Under the pieces are notes generated by a model that searched no databases, was not told the DNA's origin, and saw nothing but the letters and a program-made list of their open reading frames with translations. The position numbers and the translations under genes are program-made. Positions 2,848 through 26,790 of a stretch of DNA of 27,618 bases are shown here, one piece after another. This stretch comes from a virus. The stretch's first letter is position 1. Every line of letters starts with the position of its first letter. The DNA lies in IMG/VR virus record IMGVR_UViG_3300007722_000087, positions 1 to 27,618 of that record; one strand, written 5' to 3'.

Positions 2848-3300
2848 CTAGCCGGTACGCTGAACCTGAAGCACTTTGTTATTGTCATAATACAGCCGGT
2901 ACATCAGTCCGTATTGTTGCCCTTGAGTTGGCTCAAACATAATTGGGAGGTCTAATCCAACAGATTGATCTAAATAACTAAGTGTAATATGACCCGTTAC
3001 CTCTGTCTCAAAAAGGGGCGGAAAAACTGAGCCAACACGTACGCCACAGGCAACTACTTGATCGCCCCCATCCCAAGCGGCTACGTAACAAAGGGTATGG
3101 GGCGCTATGTTAGGGTCTTGAATGCCTGTTACGACAGGGTCAGTAAATTTAACATCTCCAGTATTGCAGCCATAGGGCGCATCAAAATGATAGTAGTTAA
3201 CCGATGAGCCTGACTCAAACCCAGTAGTTACCGGTGTTAAGCTATAACAGGTTGAAGACGCTAATAACGTAGTAATAATCAACGGTAGTATTTTATGCAT
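2848..3300 (-). CDS. Secreted or periplasmic protein, probable lysogenic-conversion cargo
   Basis: The product has 150 residues, starting at the ATG at 3300. That start has GGAGGA 7 nt upstream and begins directly with a signal peptide (MHKILPLIITTLLASSTCYS, cleavage likely after this hydrophobic stretch). The longer frame from 3330 would bury the signal. The mature part is rich in beta-forming residues, with Cys in GCNTGDVKF, HTLCYV and VVACGV. I recognise no domain. The gene faces away from the late operon, has its own promoter side and a terminator-shaped dyad after it, and is exported. That is the standard profile of a moron expressed from the prophage. The last bases include GTACGCTGAACCTG before the dyad. 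Confidence 0.6.
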   Translation of the reverse strand: MHKILPLIITTLLASSTCYSLTPVTTGFESGSSVNYYHFDAPYGCNTGDVKFTDPVVTGIQDPNIAPHTLCYVAAWDGGDQVVACGVRVGSVFPPLFETEVTGHITLSYLDQSVGLDLPIMFEPTQGQQYGLMYRLYYDNNKVLQVQRTG

Positions 3301-3359
3301 AATTGTTCCTCCAGATTGGACCTCCATCACACCACAAAATTAACATTATCGCAATAGGG

Positions 3360-3806: not shown

Positions 3807-3981
3807 AGATGCCGGTATTTTATTAAGCTGTACGCCTGACGCAATTAGGCAAAAGCAACATCGTGGGCAATTAAAAGTTGTTGGTAGAAAAAATAGCTCC
3901 GTAACATGGTGTGGTCAGCCACGTCGCATGATGGTGAATTTATACGATAAGAATGAGGTGTTAAAGCTATGTCAAACGTAG
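3784..3981 (+). CDS. Small helix-turn-helix (excisionase/MerR-type) protein
   Basis: The product has 65 residues. ITAKDAGILLSCTPDAIRQ is a HTH of the excisionase/MerR type, with the next turn HRGQLKVVGRK in the wing position. YDKNEVLKLC closes the domain, where such proteins read a final strand and helix. The size is right for a DNA-binding domain alone. It has GGGAG about 10 nt before the ATG. The end overlaps the terminase small subunit by 13 nt. It may regulate the late operon or assist DNA recognition by terminase. Excision is less likely from its location. Confidence 0.6.
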   Translation: MMQYITAKDAGILLSCTPDAIRQKQHRGQLKVVGRKNSSVTWCGQPRRMMVNLYDKNEVLKLCQT

Positions 3982-4373
3982 AGGCAGGCAAGCAGCTGCA
4001 CCCTAACTGCAAATTTAAGGATGGGATGCCAGATATGATTGTCACCATGATGTCTGAGGGCGCGAGCAAAACAGAAGTTTGTGCGCACCTTGGTATCGAT
4101 AAAGACACACTGAATGAATGGAAAAAACCTAACGGTGTATATTTTATTGACGCAGTTTCCGTCGCCGTAAAAAAAGGCGAGCTTTGTTCTCAAGCATGGT
4201 GGGAGCGCGCAGGTCGATTGTCACTCAAGGATAAAGAGTTCAGCTACACCGGTTGGTACATGAACATGAAGAACCGTTTTGGCTGGGCGGATAAACAAGA
4301 GCAAATTATTAGTGCAAACGTAAACCACTCTGTTGACAGAGATATTCTCGATAGATTTGAAAAAGAGTTTTGA
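3969..4373 (+). CDS. terS: Terminase small subunit
   Basis: The product has 134 residues. MIVTMMSEGASKTEVCAHLGIDKDTLNEWKK is an HTH of the small-terminase type, covering residues 23-53 approximately. The following segment, with FIDAVSVAVKKGELCSQAWWERAGR and GWYMNMKNRFGW, matches the conserved helical body of this family, in which WxMNMKNRFGW is a hallmark. It recognises the packaging start site and hands DNA to the large subunit in headful packaging. It overlaps the large-subunit region by a few bases and is shorter than P22 gp3 (162 aa). Any pac site is likely within or near this gene but cannot be identified by eye. Confidence 0.85.
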   Translation: MSNVEAGKQLHPNCKFKDGMPDMIVTMMSEGASKTEVCAHLGIDKDTLNEWKKPNGVYFIDAVSVAVKKGELCSQAWWERAGRLSLKDKEFSYTGWYMNMKNRFGWADKQEQIISANVNHSVDRDILDRFEKEF

Positions 4374-19301: not shown

Positions 19302-19349
19302 CTTTGAGCAACATGGAATAAATTAACACAGTTGAATGAGGAAATTACA

Positions 19350-22307
19350 ATGATAGAGCTACCACCACTTTCTGCAACAGATGCTAGAATATCTAGCCTC
19401 GATGCAGCTACTTCTTTAGCCACAAACGACCTGTTTTTAGTTGTTGACGTTTCAGACGTATCAATGGCACCGACCGGTACAGATAAAAAATCCACCGTTC
19501 AAACCGTGTTTAACACCTCAGCCGTGCCGATTTTAAATCCTGCGGCTAACTTTGCGGCACTAGATGCTCGCGATAAAACTAATTTAGTCTCTGGCGCTAT
19601 CTGCTATTTAACAAATGGTGATTTATATCAATTTGTTGGTGGCGCATGGGTAGAGCATAGCTCTGATTCGAATGTTGCATTGCCTGATTGTATTATTGAT
19701 GGTGTAGGTGGTGCCGTTGATACCTTTGCAAGCTTTAATGCGGCGGTCTTAGCGGTTAAAAAATCCCCTAAAGTAACGGCGAATGTCTCCGAAACAGTAG
19801 CCGCTACTCTTATTAATGACATGACCGTTTACACGGAAGAAGGGTTTACTCTTGCATTTGGAAATTTTGAACCCAAAAGTAATGGTCATAGCATAACCTT
19901 TAACATGCTTAGTGCTAATTCAGCGGTAACATGGACACCTCTATCATCAAAACCATTTTGGGACGGCGCATCCGCATCAGAACAGATTATTTTAACGGGT
20001 CCAGGCACTTTTTTAAATAATGGCGCTGTAGCTAATACTCCGCTGACGGCTGGCAATTACCAGACTGTTAATTGCGGATTTTATAAAGCAGGCGATGCTG
20101 AAAATGCAGGGTTAATTTTTACCGCATTAAATTCCAGCATGTCAAAATGCATTGTATACACTACAAGTCCAGCGTGTAATTTGCCAGTTGTTAATAATGG
20201 CGGATTAATATCAAGTAGCATTCTACGACCAACTTCTTTTGCGCCGCGAGATTTTTCTACATTTACAGCAAGTTCAGTTTCTAATGAATTAACCTTCCCT
20301 GACGGCACTGAATTAGTTTACACAACAGGCACACCGTTTACCGTTTCAACAACAGCCACACTGCCAGAGCCATTAGTTACAGGCACAAAATATTATGCAA
20401 TTTACGTAAACAATACAGTTTTAAAACTAGCAACAACATTTGCCAATGCAAAAGCTGGAGCAGCTATCACGCTAACCACAGATGGAAGCGGTAATATGAC
20501 AGCAACAACGGCCACAGTATTTTATTCATCAGAAAATGATTTATCTCAGCTAATACAAACTCAATTTAGCGGCACTGTAGAAAGCATCCCTGTGGTTATA
20601 GGTGGGCTTGCTCAAAACGTAATTACTAGAGAAGTGTATTTAACAATTGAAACTGGCTGTGCAAACACAGTTATTGATAACGTTCAAACCAATGATGGCA
20701 CTATCAATATTTTGCATAACGACTGTTCGTTAGCAACATCCCTAGATTCTTCTGGCATAACAGTGTTAGCCGGAACAACCGGCACGTCAATTGAAAACAG
20801 CAACACGGGCACATATGCGCCAAACGGATGCCCTGTGCGCCGCGCTTTAAATTATCCGGTAATTGGAAACAGCGCAGGCGATAGTGATGAAGGCATAGAA
20901 TTATTTCAAGCTGGGATTGATGCGACAGGCGCTACTAATCATTATTCAACCGTTGTGGCTGCTTACGCGGCTGGCAAGAAAATTGATTTGGTGCTAGCCA
21001 ATACAGTCGAAACGTCTGACTTGGTGTTATCAGCCACTAGTGAAGTAGCCGTTACAATCAATCAGGGGTTATCTTGGGACATTGCGGCAACACAAATTGA
21101 CGGCACCGCAGGCGGAACAGCATTTACATTGTCGTGGGTAGACCAATCTGCGGTATTTAAGTACGCAATGACGGGTACAAATTTACCATTTGCAGCATTT
21201 GATATTAATTCAACCATTTCATTGCTTGCCAATGGCGGAACAGTACAAAACACATCCGCTGTCGACAATACTTACATCACGGGAAACGGCGATTTATTTG
21301 TTAATGGCGCATACTTTTTACTAGCTAACCAATACCACAGCGGTATCAAAACAAACCCTTATGCTGAAATTAAAGGGGTTTGGTTTCAAGGCGCGGGGGT
21401 GGCTTGTGAAGTTGCTATAGAAACCGCTGGTGGCGTAATTAACGGCACAGTTATTACAGGCCAATACAAAACTGATGGTGTATTAATTCTTGCTACAGCC
21501 CCATCGTTTGTACGTGATACAACTATCGATATTAATGGCGCGGCACAACTTGAAGCACAGGGGTTATTCGATGGTTTAATTTACACAGATACAAGCAGTC
21601 TTGTGCTTACAGCGCAAAGCGATACGGTTATTGCAAATATTCCAAAACCAAGCGAAGGTATATTGTCGCTCGCAATTCCAAGCGGGGTTGAAAATGTCGA
21701 CGTGTTGGCAGTAACTTTAACCGGCGTTTTATCATTGGCCGTGGATAACACAGCAGAAAATATTACATTTTTACGTGTTACATTTCAGCAAGACACAATT
21801 GTTTATGGTTCAAATATTAATTTCATTGGCTGTAAATTCTATGGCAACTTAACCACGGATGAAGATGCGACGGGTGAATTTATTGGTTGCGAAATCATTG
21901 GTGGCGGAACATTTACGGACGACGGTGATTTCAGATTATCTGGTAATGACTCAGCCATCGGAAATGATTACGCCCCAGCAATTGAATTCATTTCAACTAC
22001 CACGCAGCAAATGAGCTCTAAAGGCAAGTCTTACGTAGCTGAAAATGCAGCGCTAACAACATTTACATTACCAGCTACATTCCAAAAAGGCGAAATATTT
22101 AAAATTATTGGCAACAATGTTGGTGGTTGGAAGCTTGCACAGAATGCGGGGCAGCAAATATCTGTCTGCGACACAATAACTACTACCATCGGCGCGTCTG
22201 GGTATGTTCAATCAACAGCAGCGGGTGATTGTATAGAGCTTCTTGCCGTGACAGATAACACAGCATTAAGAGTTGTTGGATCCATGGGGAATCCAAACTA
22301 TTTATAA
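19350..22307 (+). CDS. Large tail fibre or tailspike
   Basis: The product has 985 residues from the ATG at 19350, with GAGG 8 nt upstream. The TTG at 19332 is rejected. The N-terminus, LPPLSATDARISSLDAATS, then NDLFLVVDVSDVSMAPTGT, is a common fibre start that attaches to the virion. Many short beta strands with Asn and Gly turns (GGLISSSILRPTSF and later GCKFYGNLTTDEDATGEFIG) fit a right-handed beta-helix. An inserted module (about 325-395) has TGTKYYAIYVNNTVLKLATT. The last about 90 residues are homologous to the next gene's C-terminus. No catalytic residues can be assigned. Confidence 0.75.
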   Translation: MIELPPLSATDARISSLDAATSLATNDLFLVVDVSDVSMAPTGTDKKSTVQTVFNTSAVPILNPAANFAALDARDKTNLVSGAICYLTNGDLYQFVGGAWVEHSSDSNVALPDCIIDGVGGAVDTFASFNAAVLAVKKSPKVTANVSETVAATLINDMTVYTEEGFTLAFGNFEPKSNGHSITFNMLSANSAVTWTPLSSKPFWDGASASEQIILTGPGTFLNNGAVANTPLTAGNYQTVNCGFYKAGDAENAGLIFTALNSSMSKCIVYTTSPACNLPVVNNGGLISSSILRPTSFAPRDFSTFTASSVSNELTFPDGTELVYTTGTPFTVSTTATLPEPLVTGTKYYAIYVNNTVLKLATTFANAKAGAAITLTTDGSGNMTATTATVFYSSENDLSQLIQTQFSGTVESIPVVIGGLAQNVITREVYLTIETGCANTVIDNVQTNDGTINILHNDCSLATSLDSSGITVLAGTTGTSIENSNTGTYAPNGCPVRRALNYPVIGNSAGDSDEGIELFQAGIDATGATNHYSTVVAAYAAGKKIDLVLANTVETSDLVLSATSEVAVTINQGLSWDIAATQIDGTAGGTAFTLSWVDQSAVFKYAMTGTNLPFAAFDINSTISLLANGGTVQNTSAVDNTYITGNGDLFVNGAYFLLANQYHSGIKTNPYAEIKGVWFQGAGVACEVAIETAGGVINGTVITGQYKTDGVLILATAPSFVRDTTIDINGAAQLEAQGLFDGLIYTDTSSLVLTAQSDTVIANIPKPSEGILSLAIPSGVENVDVLAVTLTGVLSLAVDNTAENITFLRVTFQQDTIVYGSNINFIGCKFYGNLTTDEDATGEFIGCEIIGGGTFTDDGDFRLSGNDSAIGNDYAPAIEFISTTTQQMSSKGKSYVAENAALTTFTLPATFQKGEIFKIIGNNVGGWKLAQNAGQQISVCDTITTTIGASGYVQSTAAGDCIELLAVTDNTALRVVGSMGNPNYL

Positions 22308-22324: not shown

Positions 22325-22825
22325 ATGACTACATGTAACGCAAGTGGAAATAAATTAACAGACGGGACTAGCAATATTACGCTAGGTGGAGACTTAATAA
22401 CATCTGGTGCCTATGCAACAACTATTACTGCAACCGGCACTACAAACATCACAATCCCTACAAGTGGAACATTATCAAATGGCACATTGGCAGTGACAAA
22501 TGTTACGGGCACAAGCGCGGCGATGACAGCTAACAATGCTTACGTTGCAAACAATGCAGCGTTAGTAACATTAGCGCTTCCTACAACAGGTGCTGTGGGT
22601 GACGTAGTAGAGATTTGTGGTGCTGGCGCAGGTGGTTGGGCAGTATCTCAGGCAGCTAGTCAATACATTCGTTTTGCTAGCGGTGGGTCTACGCTTTCTA
22701 CAACAGTTGGCGTTGGCGGCTCTATTGCATCAACAACAGCAGCCGATTGCATCACATTAAAATGTATTGTAATTAACAATGGCTGGGAAGCGTCTGACAT
22801 GGTAGGCAATATCACCGTCGTTTAA
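22325..22825 (+). CDS. Short fibre-type protein sharing the terminal domain of its neighbour
   Basis: The product has 166 residues. The first 60 have short fibre-like repeats (SNITLGGDLITSGAY, then NITIPTSGTLSNGTL). Residues 65-160 are clearly homologous to the end of the 985-aa fibre: YVANNAALVTLALPTTGAVGD aligns with its YVAENAALTTFTLPATF, and both have a GGW then Q-A-A/N repeat and a TAADC or AAGDC. This reads as a virion-exposed trimerisation or receptor domain used twice. AGGAGA lies 9 nt before the ATG. Confidence 0.68.
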   Translation: MTTCNASGNKLTDGTSNITLGGDLITSGAYATTITATGTTNITIPTSGTLSNGTLAVTNVTGTSAAMTANNAYVANNAALVTLALPTTGAVGDVVEICGAGAGGWAVSQAASQYIRFASGGSTLSTTVGVGGSIASTTAADCITLKCIVINNGWEASDMVGNITVV

Positions 22826-22832
22826 TAATTTA

Positions 22833-22851
22833 GGGCGGTGAAATGCCGCCC
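22833..22851 (+). other. Hairpin just before the secreted protein's ribosome site
   Basis: GGGCGG (22833-22838) pairs with CCGCCC (22846-22851) around TGAAATG. No T-run follows, so it is not a normal terminator. It sits between the fibre stop and the GAGGA Shine-Dalgarno at about 22857-22863. It may be an RNA processing or attenuation element. Confidence 0.4.
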
Positions 22852-22867
22852 CTATTGTGAGGAAATT

Positions 22868-25800
22868 ATGAAAATTTTTAATGAAAAAATATTTGCCGGA
22901 ATGCTTTTATTGTTTTTTAGTTTTTTTGCTCAGCAGAGCAATGCGGCAAGTAACACCGTATCAATTACACGAATAAACGGGATGCCAGCAAAAGTTATTG
23001 AAGGGACAACTCTTACCAACCTTACGTATAATATTCATAATAATAGTGATTCGGAAACTTTCAGTCTAGCATTTCCTGGCTTGCAAGGCGCTGGTATCAC
23101 CTACACCACAACCTGCGGAAGCTTGGCACCAAGTGCGGACTGTGGTTTAACGCTAACCTTTGTTGCTCCGATGTTGCCGCCAGCGTCCTATAACCATCCT
23201 TTTTCAATCACGGGGGCACCTTCGCCAACAATTGCTAATTTGTCGACTACGATTATTGCAAATCCAGGGCTAATAACAGTAAGCGCAAATATCTCCTTAA
23301 GTGGCGGGGCCTCTGACCCAACGCCAGATACTTTTGACATAGACCTTACTAGTACTACGCCAGGTGGCCCAACTTATCATTATACAAGCGTACCATTAGG
23401 TACATCGGCATTGTCACCACAAGTTCAAGGCGGCCATTATATTGAGCATATTTCACCAGCTACGGTAACAGGCGGCGCGGGCACTTATGACGCACCCACA
23501 GACACAACAGTTAATATTACTAGCGCAACAACGCTGCCATTTGTTTATACGCTTGAACAAAACCCAGAGGTGGACACTGATTTAACAATGCCTCTAGTAG
23601 GTTCTGCAACGTCAGACGTAACCATGGCTGGAACGGCTGGAACATTTGGCCCACATGCACAAGGCCCTGGATCTACAGACTTTGATCGCATGCCAGCAGG
23701 TTCGTACACGGTAACGGCTACTAATTATGTAGATACTAATGGCGATACAGAGGTTGCAGTGCTTTCAAACCCTTATACCATTTCGTCTGGATCGCATGTT
23801 GTTTCGTTCTCGTTTGCAGCAAAAGCTCCCACCACAGAACATGTTTCCACTGTTATCACAGCACCGAATTTACCTGCTGGTCAACCTGTTGCTGTCACAG
23901 CCACGGGAACGCCAACTTATGGCCCGCATAATCAAGCAGCCGGAACCACAGCATTTGATACCATGGAAGATGGAAGCTACACATTCTCAGCAGCAAATTA
24001 TACAGTAGGGTCAAATACTTATGTTGCAACAATCAGCAACCCAGTTGTAATTAATGGCTCAAGCACAAGCGTTGCTATTGTTTATTCTAAAGTAGCTCCA
24101 GGTGGTAATTATGATTGGCACCCATCTCGACTAGAAGATCTTGCTGATGATAATATTTTTGCAATTTTTTGGGGAGGTGGCAGCACTACAGCACCAGTTC
24201 ATATCAGCACCAACCCGCCCGTGAATCCTTTCTTGAATGCACAATTAGCGGCTTATGCATTAGATACTACGCCAAGACAATCCAACGCAGCAGTGCAAAA
24301 CTTTCCTAATTATATTGCGCAAGGCTCGGTTTCAGAATTTACACCAGACGTAACAACTCAAATGGGATCTCAAAAATTAGATATCGATTTTCATTACGAG
24401 GGCGGGGGCGATTCTAGCGCATCATGTGCTTGGGATAATAGCCTAGGTTACAATGTAGCACTTCCTGCCGCATCTGGAAGCATTGGAACATTAGCAGCAG
24501 GAACGTATAATATTATTGCGGATTATTACTTATATTCCGATCCTCCCGCTGGTTTTTTTGGAAAAATGTTTAATTCTGTAACAAGTTTATTTGGCGCTCC
24601 AAGTAACGGCGTACATTATTACCAAGGTGCGTTAACTATAACTAACACTAGCGGATTAAATTACGTTGTTAATGTTGTTTATACTGAGACAACCTCAGCG
24701 ATTACAGCGGCACCAAATTTATCTTTAGTGAAAAGAGTTACTTTGCCTGCAAATGCCGTTGTCACGTATACACAAACTGCACCACATTTGGGTAGCATCG
24801 TAACGCCGCCGCATTTAAATTTAAATGTTGATGGGTTGTGCTATTCGGTGTGGTATGAATCGGGCGGCTATGCTCCTCAGGTTGACAATATTGCAGCGCA
24901 AGCAGCAGCAGTAAAAGCGTCGAATAGTCACAATCTAATTGCTGGTAATGTGTTTTATACTACGCGCAATAGTGATTCTTTTGATTCGATTCATGATGAC
25001 TTGACTAATGACTATAGCTTAATATTTTATTTGTATAATTTAATGTGGGAAGCTCAGCGGATGCAATATCAACATGATCAAAACGATGTTGATATGGTAT
25101 TGTTAATCAATCCTGATTCAACGCAAGTTTTCCAAGGTTGTACACAATACTACTGCCCGATCATTTGGAAAGCAGGGATTACTCAAGACACTGTAAATCA
25201 ATTGATTCAGATTCCAAACTTGCTTGCAGATGTTAATGCAGCAGCAGATCGCATGGTAGCTAAAGGTTACCTAAGCTCTGGTGATGCTGCAACATTTAAA
25301 GCGTTAGTTGTGAGCTCTGGTATATTAACGCCTCCAGGCGGTAGCGGCAGAACGGTAGCTGGTGCGCCAGAATACTACTTGCTTCATAACTTGATCGTAA
25401 AACATTTTGGTCCTAACGTTCCGTTTGGTTATGGTCAAAATATTTATGATAATGCTAATCCATTAATGGCTGTGGGAACTCCGCCGGTTGCAAATGCTCC
25501 GTGGGAAACTGCATCTGTGACTTGGTTGCATAAAGTTAATCACCTTGGATACAGTCCTAGCGTAGTTTCTCAAGCAATTGCTTTTGATGCTGCAAAATAC
25601 GCGCAGTTTTTGAAAGACATGCATTACGCGAGCTATGCTGGAGATCCAAACGCGGCCTACGCGCCTGACTTTATTTATTATGATATCTATGAGCGCGATC
25701 CAATTCCTGGCGAAGTTGGTTCAGGACGCGTAATGAACGGCCCTGACTTAGATAGTTATTTTGAGTACATCAAAGACATTGACGCGCTTACTGCTAACCA

Positions 25801-26059
25801 ACCAATGGCAATCTGGCAAATACCTGGTTCTAGCTTGCAAGTGCAAGGTGATACGTTCACAGGTGTATTAGCTGGGACATGGCCGGATTATGTTTTTGGT
25901 CATCCAACTTTAAATAATGATATGAGTAATCTAGCAACATCATTAGGGATCCCAGCAATTGTATTTGTACCTTACTGGCAAACAAGCGTGTATTACACGA
26001 ATAATAGCCACGTAAATAATTTAGAGGATTATTTAAAGCTAACATCGGATTCCCCGTAA
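22868..26059 (+). CDS. Large secreted protein with beta repeats and a possible enzymatic domain
   Basis: The product has 1063 residues from the ATG at 22868, with GAGGA upstream; the GTG at 22838 is not used. It begins with a signal peptide (MKIFNEKIFAGMLLLFFSFF, cleavage near SNA-A). Residues 30-130 look Ig-like, and about 225-410 holds two near-repeats of roughly 85 residues (TYGPHNQAAGTTAFDTMEDG vs TFGPHAQGPGSTDFDRMPAG). From about 425 (DWHPSRLEDLADDNIFAIFW) a large globular domain runs to the end. Notable segments are YSVWYESGGY (about 655), DMVLLINPDS (about 745) and DFIYYDIYERDP (about 935), the last with clustered acidic and aromatic residues as in glycoside hydrolase active sites. No family is assigned. 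The stop overlaps the nuclease ATG. Confidence 0.62.
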   Translation: MKIFNEKIFAGMLLLFFSFFAQQSNAASNTVSITRINGMPAKVIEGTTLTNLTYNIHNNSDSETFSLAFPGLQGAGITYTTTCGSLAPSADCGLTLTFVAPMLPPASYNHPFSITGAPSPTIANLSTTIIANPGLITVSANISLSGGASDPTPDTFDIDLTSTTPGGPTYHYTSVPLGTSALSPQVQGGHYIEHISPATVTGGAGTYDAPTDTTVNITSATTLPFVYTLEQNPEVDTDLTMPLVGSATSDVTMAGTAGTFGPHAQGPGSTDFDRMPAGSYTVTATNYVDTNGDTEVAVLSNPYTISSGSHVVSFSFAAKAPTTEHVSTVITAPNLPAGQPVAVTATGTPTYGPHNQAAGTTAFDTMEDGSYTFSAANYTVGSNTYVATISNPVVINGSSTSVAIVYSKVAPGGNYDWHPSRLEDLADDNIFAIFWGGGSTTAPVHISTNPPVNPFLNAQLAAYALDTTPRQSNAAVQNFPNYIAQGSVSEFTPDVTTQMGSQKLDIDFHYEGGGDSSASCAWDNSLGYNVALPAASGSIGTLAAGTYNIIADYYLYSDPPAGFFGKMFNSVTSLFGAPSNGVHYYQGALTITNTSGLNYVVNVVYTETTSAITAAPNLSLVKRVTLPANAVVTYTQTAPHLGSIVTPPHLNLNVDGLCYSVWYESGGYAPQVDNIAAQAAAVKASNSHNLIAGNVFYTTRNSDSFDSIHDDLTNDYSLIFYLYNLMWEAQRMQYQHDQNDVDMVLLINPDSTQVFQGCTQYYCPIIWKAGITQDTVNQLIQIPNLLADVNAAADRMVAKGYLSSGDAATFKALVVSSGILTPPGGSGRTVAGAPEYYLLHNLIVKHFGPNVPFGYGQNIYDNANPLMAVGTPPVANAPWETASVTWLHKVNHLGYSPSVVSQAIAFDAAKYAQFLKDMHYASYAGDPNAAYAPDFIYYDIYERDPIPGEVGSGRVMNGPDLDSYFEYIKDIDALTANQPMAIWQIPGSSLQVQGDTFTGVLAGTWPDYVFGHPTLNNDMSNLATSLGIPAIVFVPYWQTSVYYTNNSHVNNLEDYLKLTSDSP

Positions 26060-26406
26060 TGGAGAAACACGAGCAAGCAGCAGTAATAGGGTGGTCTAGC
26101 CATATCCCTGAAATTAGGGGTAGGCTATTCCACATTCCAAACGGTGGCTCACGCCACAAATTGGAGGCTGTAGCTCTGAAAAGACAAGGTGTTAGGGCAG
26201 GTGTAAGTGATTTATTTTTACCCGTGCCAAAAGGCAAATTTCACGGCATGTGGATTGAAATGAAAGCAGTTAATGGCGCTAAGCCCAGTAAGGCTCAGCA
26301 GGAATGGCTGGATGATATGGAAAGCTTAGGCTATGCAGCTATCGTAGCCTATGGCGCAGAACAAGCTATTAATGGCTTAAAAAACTACTTAGCATTGGAG
26401 GCTTAA
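26059..26406 (+). CDS. VRR-NUC nuclease
   Basis: The product has 115 residues. It fits the VRR-NUC branch of the PD-(D/E)xK superfamily: FHIPNGGSRHKLEAVALKRQ, then GVRAGVSDLFLP with the metal-binding Asp near 54, then GMWIEMKA with the E-x-K near 69-71, then the characteristic Q-x-x-W (QQEWLDDM). GYAAIVAYGAEQAINGL ends the fold. The ATG shares a base with the stop of the secreted protein, so translation is coupled. VRR-NUC proteins cleave DNA structures such as Holliday junctions or flaps. A role in resolving branched DNA before packaging is plausible. Confidence 0.85.
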   Translation: MEKHEQAAVIGWSSHIPEIRGRLFHIPNGGSRHKLEAVALKRQGVRAGVSDLFLPVPKGKFHGMWIEMKAVNGAKPSKAQQEWLDDMESLGYAAIVAYGAEQAINGLKNYLALEA

Positions 26407-26790
26407 ATGTTTGGTGCAATATTTACAGGAGTTTCAGATATCGTTAGCGGCTGGTTTTCATTAAAGAAATCTCAGCTACAAACGCAGCGCGATATTGAAG
26501 CCAATAAATCACGCTTAGCACTTTCAACTGAAAGCAATAATTCAGCATGGGAAATGGCCGACTTAGCTAATAGCGATAAGTGGCTAAAGCGCATTCTTAC
26601 AGCACTTATTATATGGCCCATTATTCACTGTAACTTTGATGCCGCAGCTGTGGCGCAATACTTTTCAGCACTAGCTAATTCAATACCTGGATGGTGGTTA
26701 TCGCTATTTATATTAATATTTTCAAATGTATTTGGAATTTCGCCTATGCGTAATTCGATTTTAAGCATCATTGCAGCAGCTAAAAAATAA
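26407..26790 (+). CDS. Holin-like membrane protein
   Basis: The product has 127 residues. A short hydrophobic start and a basic, helical linker (residues 20-50) lead to WEMADLANSDKWLKRILTAL, then two hydrophobic segments: ILTALIIWPIIHC (about 67-80) and GWWLSLFILIFSNVFGI (about 97-115). The W-E-M-A and SDKWLKRI pattern resembles the three-transmembrane holins (GTA-type). It would form membrane lesions that release the lytic enzyme. It starts immediately after the nuclease stop. No endolysin gene was recognised nearby. Confidence 0.68.
   Translation: MFGAIFTGVSDIVSGWFSLKKSQLQTQRDIEANKSRLALSTESNNSAWEMADLANSDKWLKRILTALIIWPIIHCNFDAAAVAQYFSALANSIPGWWLSLFILIFSNVFGISPMRNSILSIIAAAKK

Follow-up and report, generated by a model that had tools for sequence, protein, structure and literature searches.

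A phage protein with predicted Sec export and an apparently permuted, glycosidase-like barrel related to the STM0019 family

The closest described relatives of the phage protein reported here (P0001) are Salmonella STM0019 and its chiA-adjacent orthologs, which carry a homologous catalytic-type domain with the same conserved aspartates. These relatives, however, are chromosomal, adjoin a GH18 chitinase gene and keep the canonical order of barrel strands. In the chiA secretion paper, stm0014 to stm0018 are described as an operon, and STM0019 is unnamed in its main text (PMC10109510). Vibrio homologs (L015, L018, L022, and L004 from V. campbellii) resemble P0001 in having both a signal peptide and a homologous barrel, but their strand order is canonical and they end in C-terminal PKD-like and CBM5/12-like domains. 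Among systems from other families, the soil viral GH75 chitosanase V-Csn is a phage-borne polysaccharide-degrading enzyme, as P0001 is proposed to be; its activity has been demonstrated, but its family is unrelated to that of P0001 and a signal peptide is unmentioned in the main text (PMC9485262). MalS, a GH13 alpha-amylase, is a glycosidase described as having circularly permuted domains, but is cellular and of a different family (PMC10223318). Phage-borne polysaccharide-active proteins are a known kind, and it is the permutation of P0001 that is unusual.

The window, meaning the whole stretch of DNA analyzed, is a virus record of 27.6 kb (27,618 nt; IMGVR_UViG_3300007722_000087) and is probably an incomplete contig. 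Because it encodes a P22-type Cro (228-470), has terminase, portal, major head and head-closure genes that match phage families, and carries a portal resembling those of phages including CUS-3 and Sf101 (21-23% identity), it is probably part of a temperate P22-like podovirus. Close relatives of this phage exist elsewhere, since contigs from two other metagenomes (L054 and L055) encode its major head protein at 99-100% identity. The minus strand carries a second ORF (2848-3330) whose N terminus resembles a signal peptide; it has no match in Pfam, PHROGs or phage records. Where the last late gene ends, ATTGTCAAC is present in three direct copies (27149, 27171 and 27193) with a spacing of 22 bp, which could represent an operator or attachment region.

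The P0001 gene and all features of its locus described below are on the plus strand. The gene is at the end of the late operon and runs from an ATG at 22868, preceded by AGGAA, to the end of its stop codon at 26059, encoding 1063 aa; an alternative in-frame start, the GTG at 22838, would lengthen the protein to 1073 aa. The protein has nothing significant in Pfam, NCBIfam or PHROGs. Searches of viral contigs using P0001, A1, A4, A6, the repeat region and the spike-like protein as queries returned a single viral relative, P0004, and no other permuted one. P0004 comes from an 18.8-kb contig whose tail sheath and baseplate genes identify a myovirus. The two proteins are 60% identical in the barrel and 43% identical in the N-terminal part, and their codons differ at positions 1, 2 and 3 with frequencies of 0.34, 0.25 and 0.61, which indicates selection at the protein level on the P0001 gene.

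An earlier note on this DNA had read the N terminus as a signal peptide, and our analysis bears this out. Residues 1-26 (22868-22945) read MKIFNEK-IFAGMLLLFFSFF-AQQSNA|AS, with an n-region of net charge +1, a hydrophobic stretch that scores highest (2.76 on a crude scale) among the 23 window ORFs tested, and a predicted SNA|AS cleavage site with suitable -3/-1 residues. P0004 likewise has a signal peptide (2.58 on the same crude scale; VFG|QD site). The note's view that such a signal is unusual in a phage late operon was overstated, as lambda Lom, the spanin Rz1 and SAR endolysins are precedents for exported proteins from phage late regions. Lom also bears on whether P0001 is a late lytic product at all, since lambda lom occupies a similar position. 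A prophage-expressed gene that helps the lysogen, for example in polysaccharide use, would agree with that position, with the temperate character marked by the P22 Cro, and with the accessory, rare distribution of P0001. No promoter stands out upstream of P0001, however, and promoter-like sites in the region are near the shuffled expectation; we consider lysogenic conversion highly improbable. A hairpin (22825-22858; z -2.25) without a T tract separates the spike genes from P0001.

Following the signal peptide is a region of beta-sandwich type (residues about 28-233; 22949-23566), a prediction from sequence character and the P0004 alignment, which has no match in Pfam or PHROG. Next come the two near-repeats that the earlier note had recognized, at residues 235-318 (23570-23821) and 321-408 (23828-24091), which are 45% identical over 67 columns (E 2e-13).

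When public records were searched in translation, short stretches matched in Salmonella STM0019 and in Vibrio campbellii. Alignment A1 of the shared part, used as a query, recovered 19 loci from cellular genomes (Enterobacterales, Vibrio and Shewanella), and sampling by class and phylum added further cellular homologs; the Gammaproteobacteria sample comprised 369 genomes and the order-level search around G064 covered one genome. A scan of genome contigs with P0001 alone as the query found nothing. The resulting STM0019-like family, defined by profiles A2 and A6, is without a Pfam or NCBIfam model, and among its members we found none of measured activity. Remoter A2 matches (E 1e-11 to 1e-17) were observed in several genomes (L041-L046), one of which (L045) is without the WQIP and NPD motifs, and a Shewanella homolog (L010, 6036-9284) has a weak cyclic-phosphodiesterase-like match after its barrel (17.5 bits vs 21).

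Residues 414-1063 of P0001 form a catalytic-type domain homologous to this family. Strands 3-7 (residues 690-1030; 24935-25957), which include YTTRNS, INPD, FGYGQN, DIYERD and WQIPG, align with the cellular family at a profile-profile (hhalign) E of 1.9e-23, strands 5-7 are found by HMM at E 3e-11, and across the barrel the rotated protein scores 131 bits. The YYDIYERDP cluster singled out in the note, at residues 937-945, is a conserved motif of the family.

What the earlier note missed is the order of the barrel segments, for which we used separate HMMs for strands 1-2, 3-4, 5-7 and 8. Strand 8 comes last in 27/27 distinct cellular homologs with a strand 8 match (L005, L029, L035-L037, L039 and L047 repeat loci already counted) and first in both phage proteins, making these permuted variants rather than regular members of the family. 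In P0001, the strand 8 segment (NIFAIFWGGGST; residues 414-464; 24107-24259) stands at the front of the barrel, with an HMM E of 3e-12 and 40% identity to Vibrio residues 792-865. It precedes strands 1-2 (FPNYIAQG...FHYEGGGD; residues 476-515; 24293-24412), which are detected at E 1e-2 in P0001 and 9e-4 in P0004. Pairwise alignment gave the same arrangement, with phage residues 391-468 corresponding to the Vibrio C-terminal segment 792-865, 475-512 to 441-478, and 879-1026 to 653-786. Rotating the sequences by 60-70 residues raised the cellular-profile score from 86 to 130-131 bits for P0001 and from 86 to 103-104 bits for P0004, and extended coverage to profile position 429-431. The strand 8 HMM found no second, leftover strand 8 at the phage C terminus. 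Judged by segment order, then, the barrel of P0001 and P0004 reads as circularly permuted, in an order so far seen only in these two phages. Misassembly was considered as its origin and rejected, as the same order occurs in the contigs of two unrelated phages at 45-62% identity. In a tree built with the rotated sequences, the two phages pair with full support on a long branch, which agrees with a single permutation event in their ancestor. Between strands 2 and 3, P0001 has a predicted inserted beta-sandwich (residues about 521-640; 24428-24787; strands of the AlphaFold2 model), and the P0004 insertion at the corresponding site matches P0001 residues 200-308.

The fold is best seen in a Vibrio member, for which AlphaFold2 predicted eight strands in barrel order (pLDDT 79.8, pTM 0.86); that strand 8 would belong to the barrel rests on this model. 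Its best structural matches are GH5, GH35, GH164 and other hydrolase barrels (Z 16-18), and Foldseek listed beta-glucosidases, endo-galactanases, GH5 and GH6. The earlier note had suggested that the large domain of P0001 looks enzymatic and proposed structure prediction and a structural search; the phage domain does match hydrolase-like barrels (Z 11-12.6), but the model is weak, with a mean pLDDT of 55.9 and the N-terminal strand 8 placed without confidence. The Glu residues that clan GH-A carries at the ends of strands 4 and 7 are absent from the family, which has NPD and WQIPG there, and its catalytic mechanism can therefore not be transferred to the STM0019-like proteins. The GH18 Pfam model does not match P0001 at E up to 1.

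A relation to GH6 was considered in more depth. Sub-threshold matches to PF01341 occur in 6/18 STM0019-like members (best E 2.2e-4); L015 scores 18.6 bits and P0001 itself 10.9 bits, both below the gathering cut-off of 27. By hhalign the family NPD falls in register with the GH6 EPD, at a P of only 0.012 and in competition with the Pfam register, and a PDB sequence search with A3 placed GH6 as the top match at E 0.16, too weak alone. The differences are that the Vibrio member has its strongest Pfam match (residues 229-310) in another register, that the E of the GH6 EPD is replaced by N, and that the loop following YxLPxRDC is reduced or missing. Querying PDB sequences with the broader profile A6 returned no glycosidase and no GH6, and GH6 is not in the best 50 matches listed in a second structural comparison. 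We treat GH6 as a lead and not as membership.

The acidic positions of the cellular family are kept in the phages, and its invariant aspartates, at the NPD and FDK positions, are present in P0001 as Asp750 and Asp939. Asp750 of INPD (25115-25117) is a candidate catalytic acid, as the NPD Asp is invariant in A6 and aligned with the GH6 EPD; Asp939 of DIYERD (25682-25684) is the second candidate, its counterpart Asp272 being invariant in A6. A non-catalytic barrel that, together with the beta-sandwich modules, binds cell-surface polysaccharide, for example altering adsorption or excluding other phages, would accord with the several such modules in P0001, with the absence of the known catalytic Glu pair, and with the changes in both phages at the H after WQIPGG and the W of GWQ, which most cellular members keep. 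Yet both phages retain the two aspartates that are invariant across diverse cellular members, and the barrel is better conserved than the N-terminal part, so that we find a purely glycan-binding protein unlikely.

Genomic context may point to the substrate of the cellular relatives. Directly upstream of the homolog in 9/15 Enterobacterales loci are chiA (GH18) and homologs of STM0016 and STM0017, as is also the case in a Salmonella Infantis record, while the remaining 6/15 are without these genes within the fetched stretch. None of the Enterobacterales homologs tested has a signal peptide. The CBM5/12-like end of the Vibrio proteins scores 20.6 bits, below the Pfam cut-off of 26.2, and matches a PDB chitinase domain at E 0.0075. 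The chiA context and these ends suggest that the cellular family acts on a chitin-like substrate, but show none for the phage protein. The chitinase association of the relatives also weighs against P0001 being an exported endolysin, a cell-wall glycosidase that would reach peptidoglycan from the periplasm. Such a role could be argued from the nature of peptidoglycan, a beta-1,4-linked amino-sugar polymer, from the small holin-like membrane protein that follows at 26407, and from the window having no other recognized endolysin. However, the contig is probably incomplete and the true endolysin may lie outside it, P0004 is not adjacent to lysis genes, and a protein of 1063 aa with repeats is atypical, all of which makes an endolysin very unlikely.

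The P0001 gene follows directly 3' of spike-like genes. The spike-like protein (19332-22307) matches, through residues 780-880, a fragment encoded upstream of P0004 (33% identity, E 4e-8). The C-terminal part of this spike-like protein recurs in the next ORF (22325-22825; 37% identity, E 7e-16). The position of P0001 would suit a virion-associated depolymerase, a tail tip or spike component digesting surface glycan at adsorption, all the more as the second phage, too, has a spike homolog upstream. The signal peptides of both phages, however, would export the protein ahead of virion assembly, and P0001 matches no tail or virion PHROG; a virion component is accordingly improbable.

Downstream, the stop codon of P0001 (TAA, 26057-26059) shares one base with the ATG at 26059 of a 115-aa VRR-NUC nuclease gene (26059-26406; TAATG), which has no clear Shine-Dalgarno upstream of its start. 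Both the overlap and the nuclease, as described in the earlier note, are genuine (PF08774, 41.2 bits against a cut-off of 23.8; phrog_824). The P0004 contig (L002) has the counterpart at 3840-4031, where a TTG start overlaps the P0004 stop codon. Spike, permuted enzyme and VRR-NUC thus occur in the same order in two unrelated phages of differing tail types, which indicates a shared cassette. The note's pairing of the enzyme with a DNA nuclease stands as a recurring gene order but not as a functional partnership: the nuclease of the P0004 phage is truncated to 63 aa beside an intact enzyme, so that a required partnership is not supported. VRR-NUC was also set aside as a specific partner because the gene occurs commonly in phages (453 records).

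Homology, permutation, signal-peptide features and the repeated association, in two phages, with a spike-like gene and VRR-NUC were computed directly. The reading that we favor, with a probability of about 0.58, is that P0001 is a Sec-exported, polysaccharide-active protein whose glycoside-hydrolase-like (beta/alpha)8 barrel is a permuted relative of that in the STM0019 family. The secreted polysaccharide-active enzyme envisaged earlier gains support from the chitinase-associated homologs, the predicted barrel and the signal peptides of both phages, while its activity is inferred. Going by gene order, P0001 would most likely be a late product of infection, expressed from the late operon. Its signal peptide would take it to the periplasm, and it would act there, or outside after lysis. 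The beta-sandwich modules are predicted to bind a glycan, and the barrel may cut a beta-linked polymer, which would be either a matrix polysaccharide or something resembling chitin. Asp750 and Asp939 are the residues that would most likely serve in catalysis.

More tentatively, an undescribed glycoside hydrolase family, chitinase-adjacent in Enterobacterales and present in Vibrio, may have been captured by phages and permuted, its product being exported late to digest host matrix polysaccharide and aid the spread of progeny, with spike and enzyme moving as one cassette across tail types. A polysaccharide-active family that has no Pfam or NCBIfam model would then adjoin a studied Salmonella chitinase, and a natural circular permutation of a hydrolase-like barrel would offer material for folding studies. 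The locus also makes testable the idea that phages, beyond their virion-bound depolymerases, export soluble enzymes that may clear the way for their progeny.
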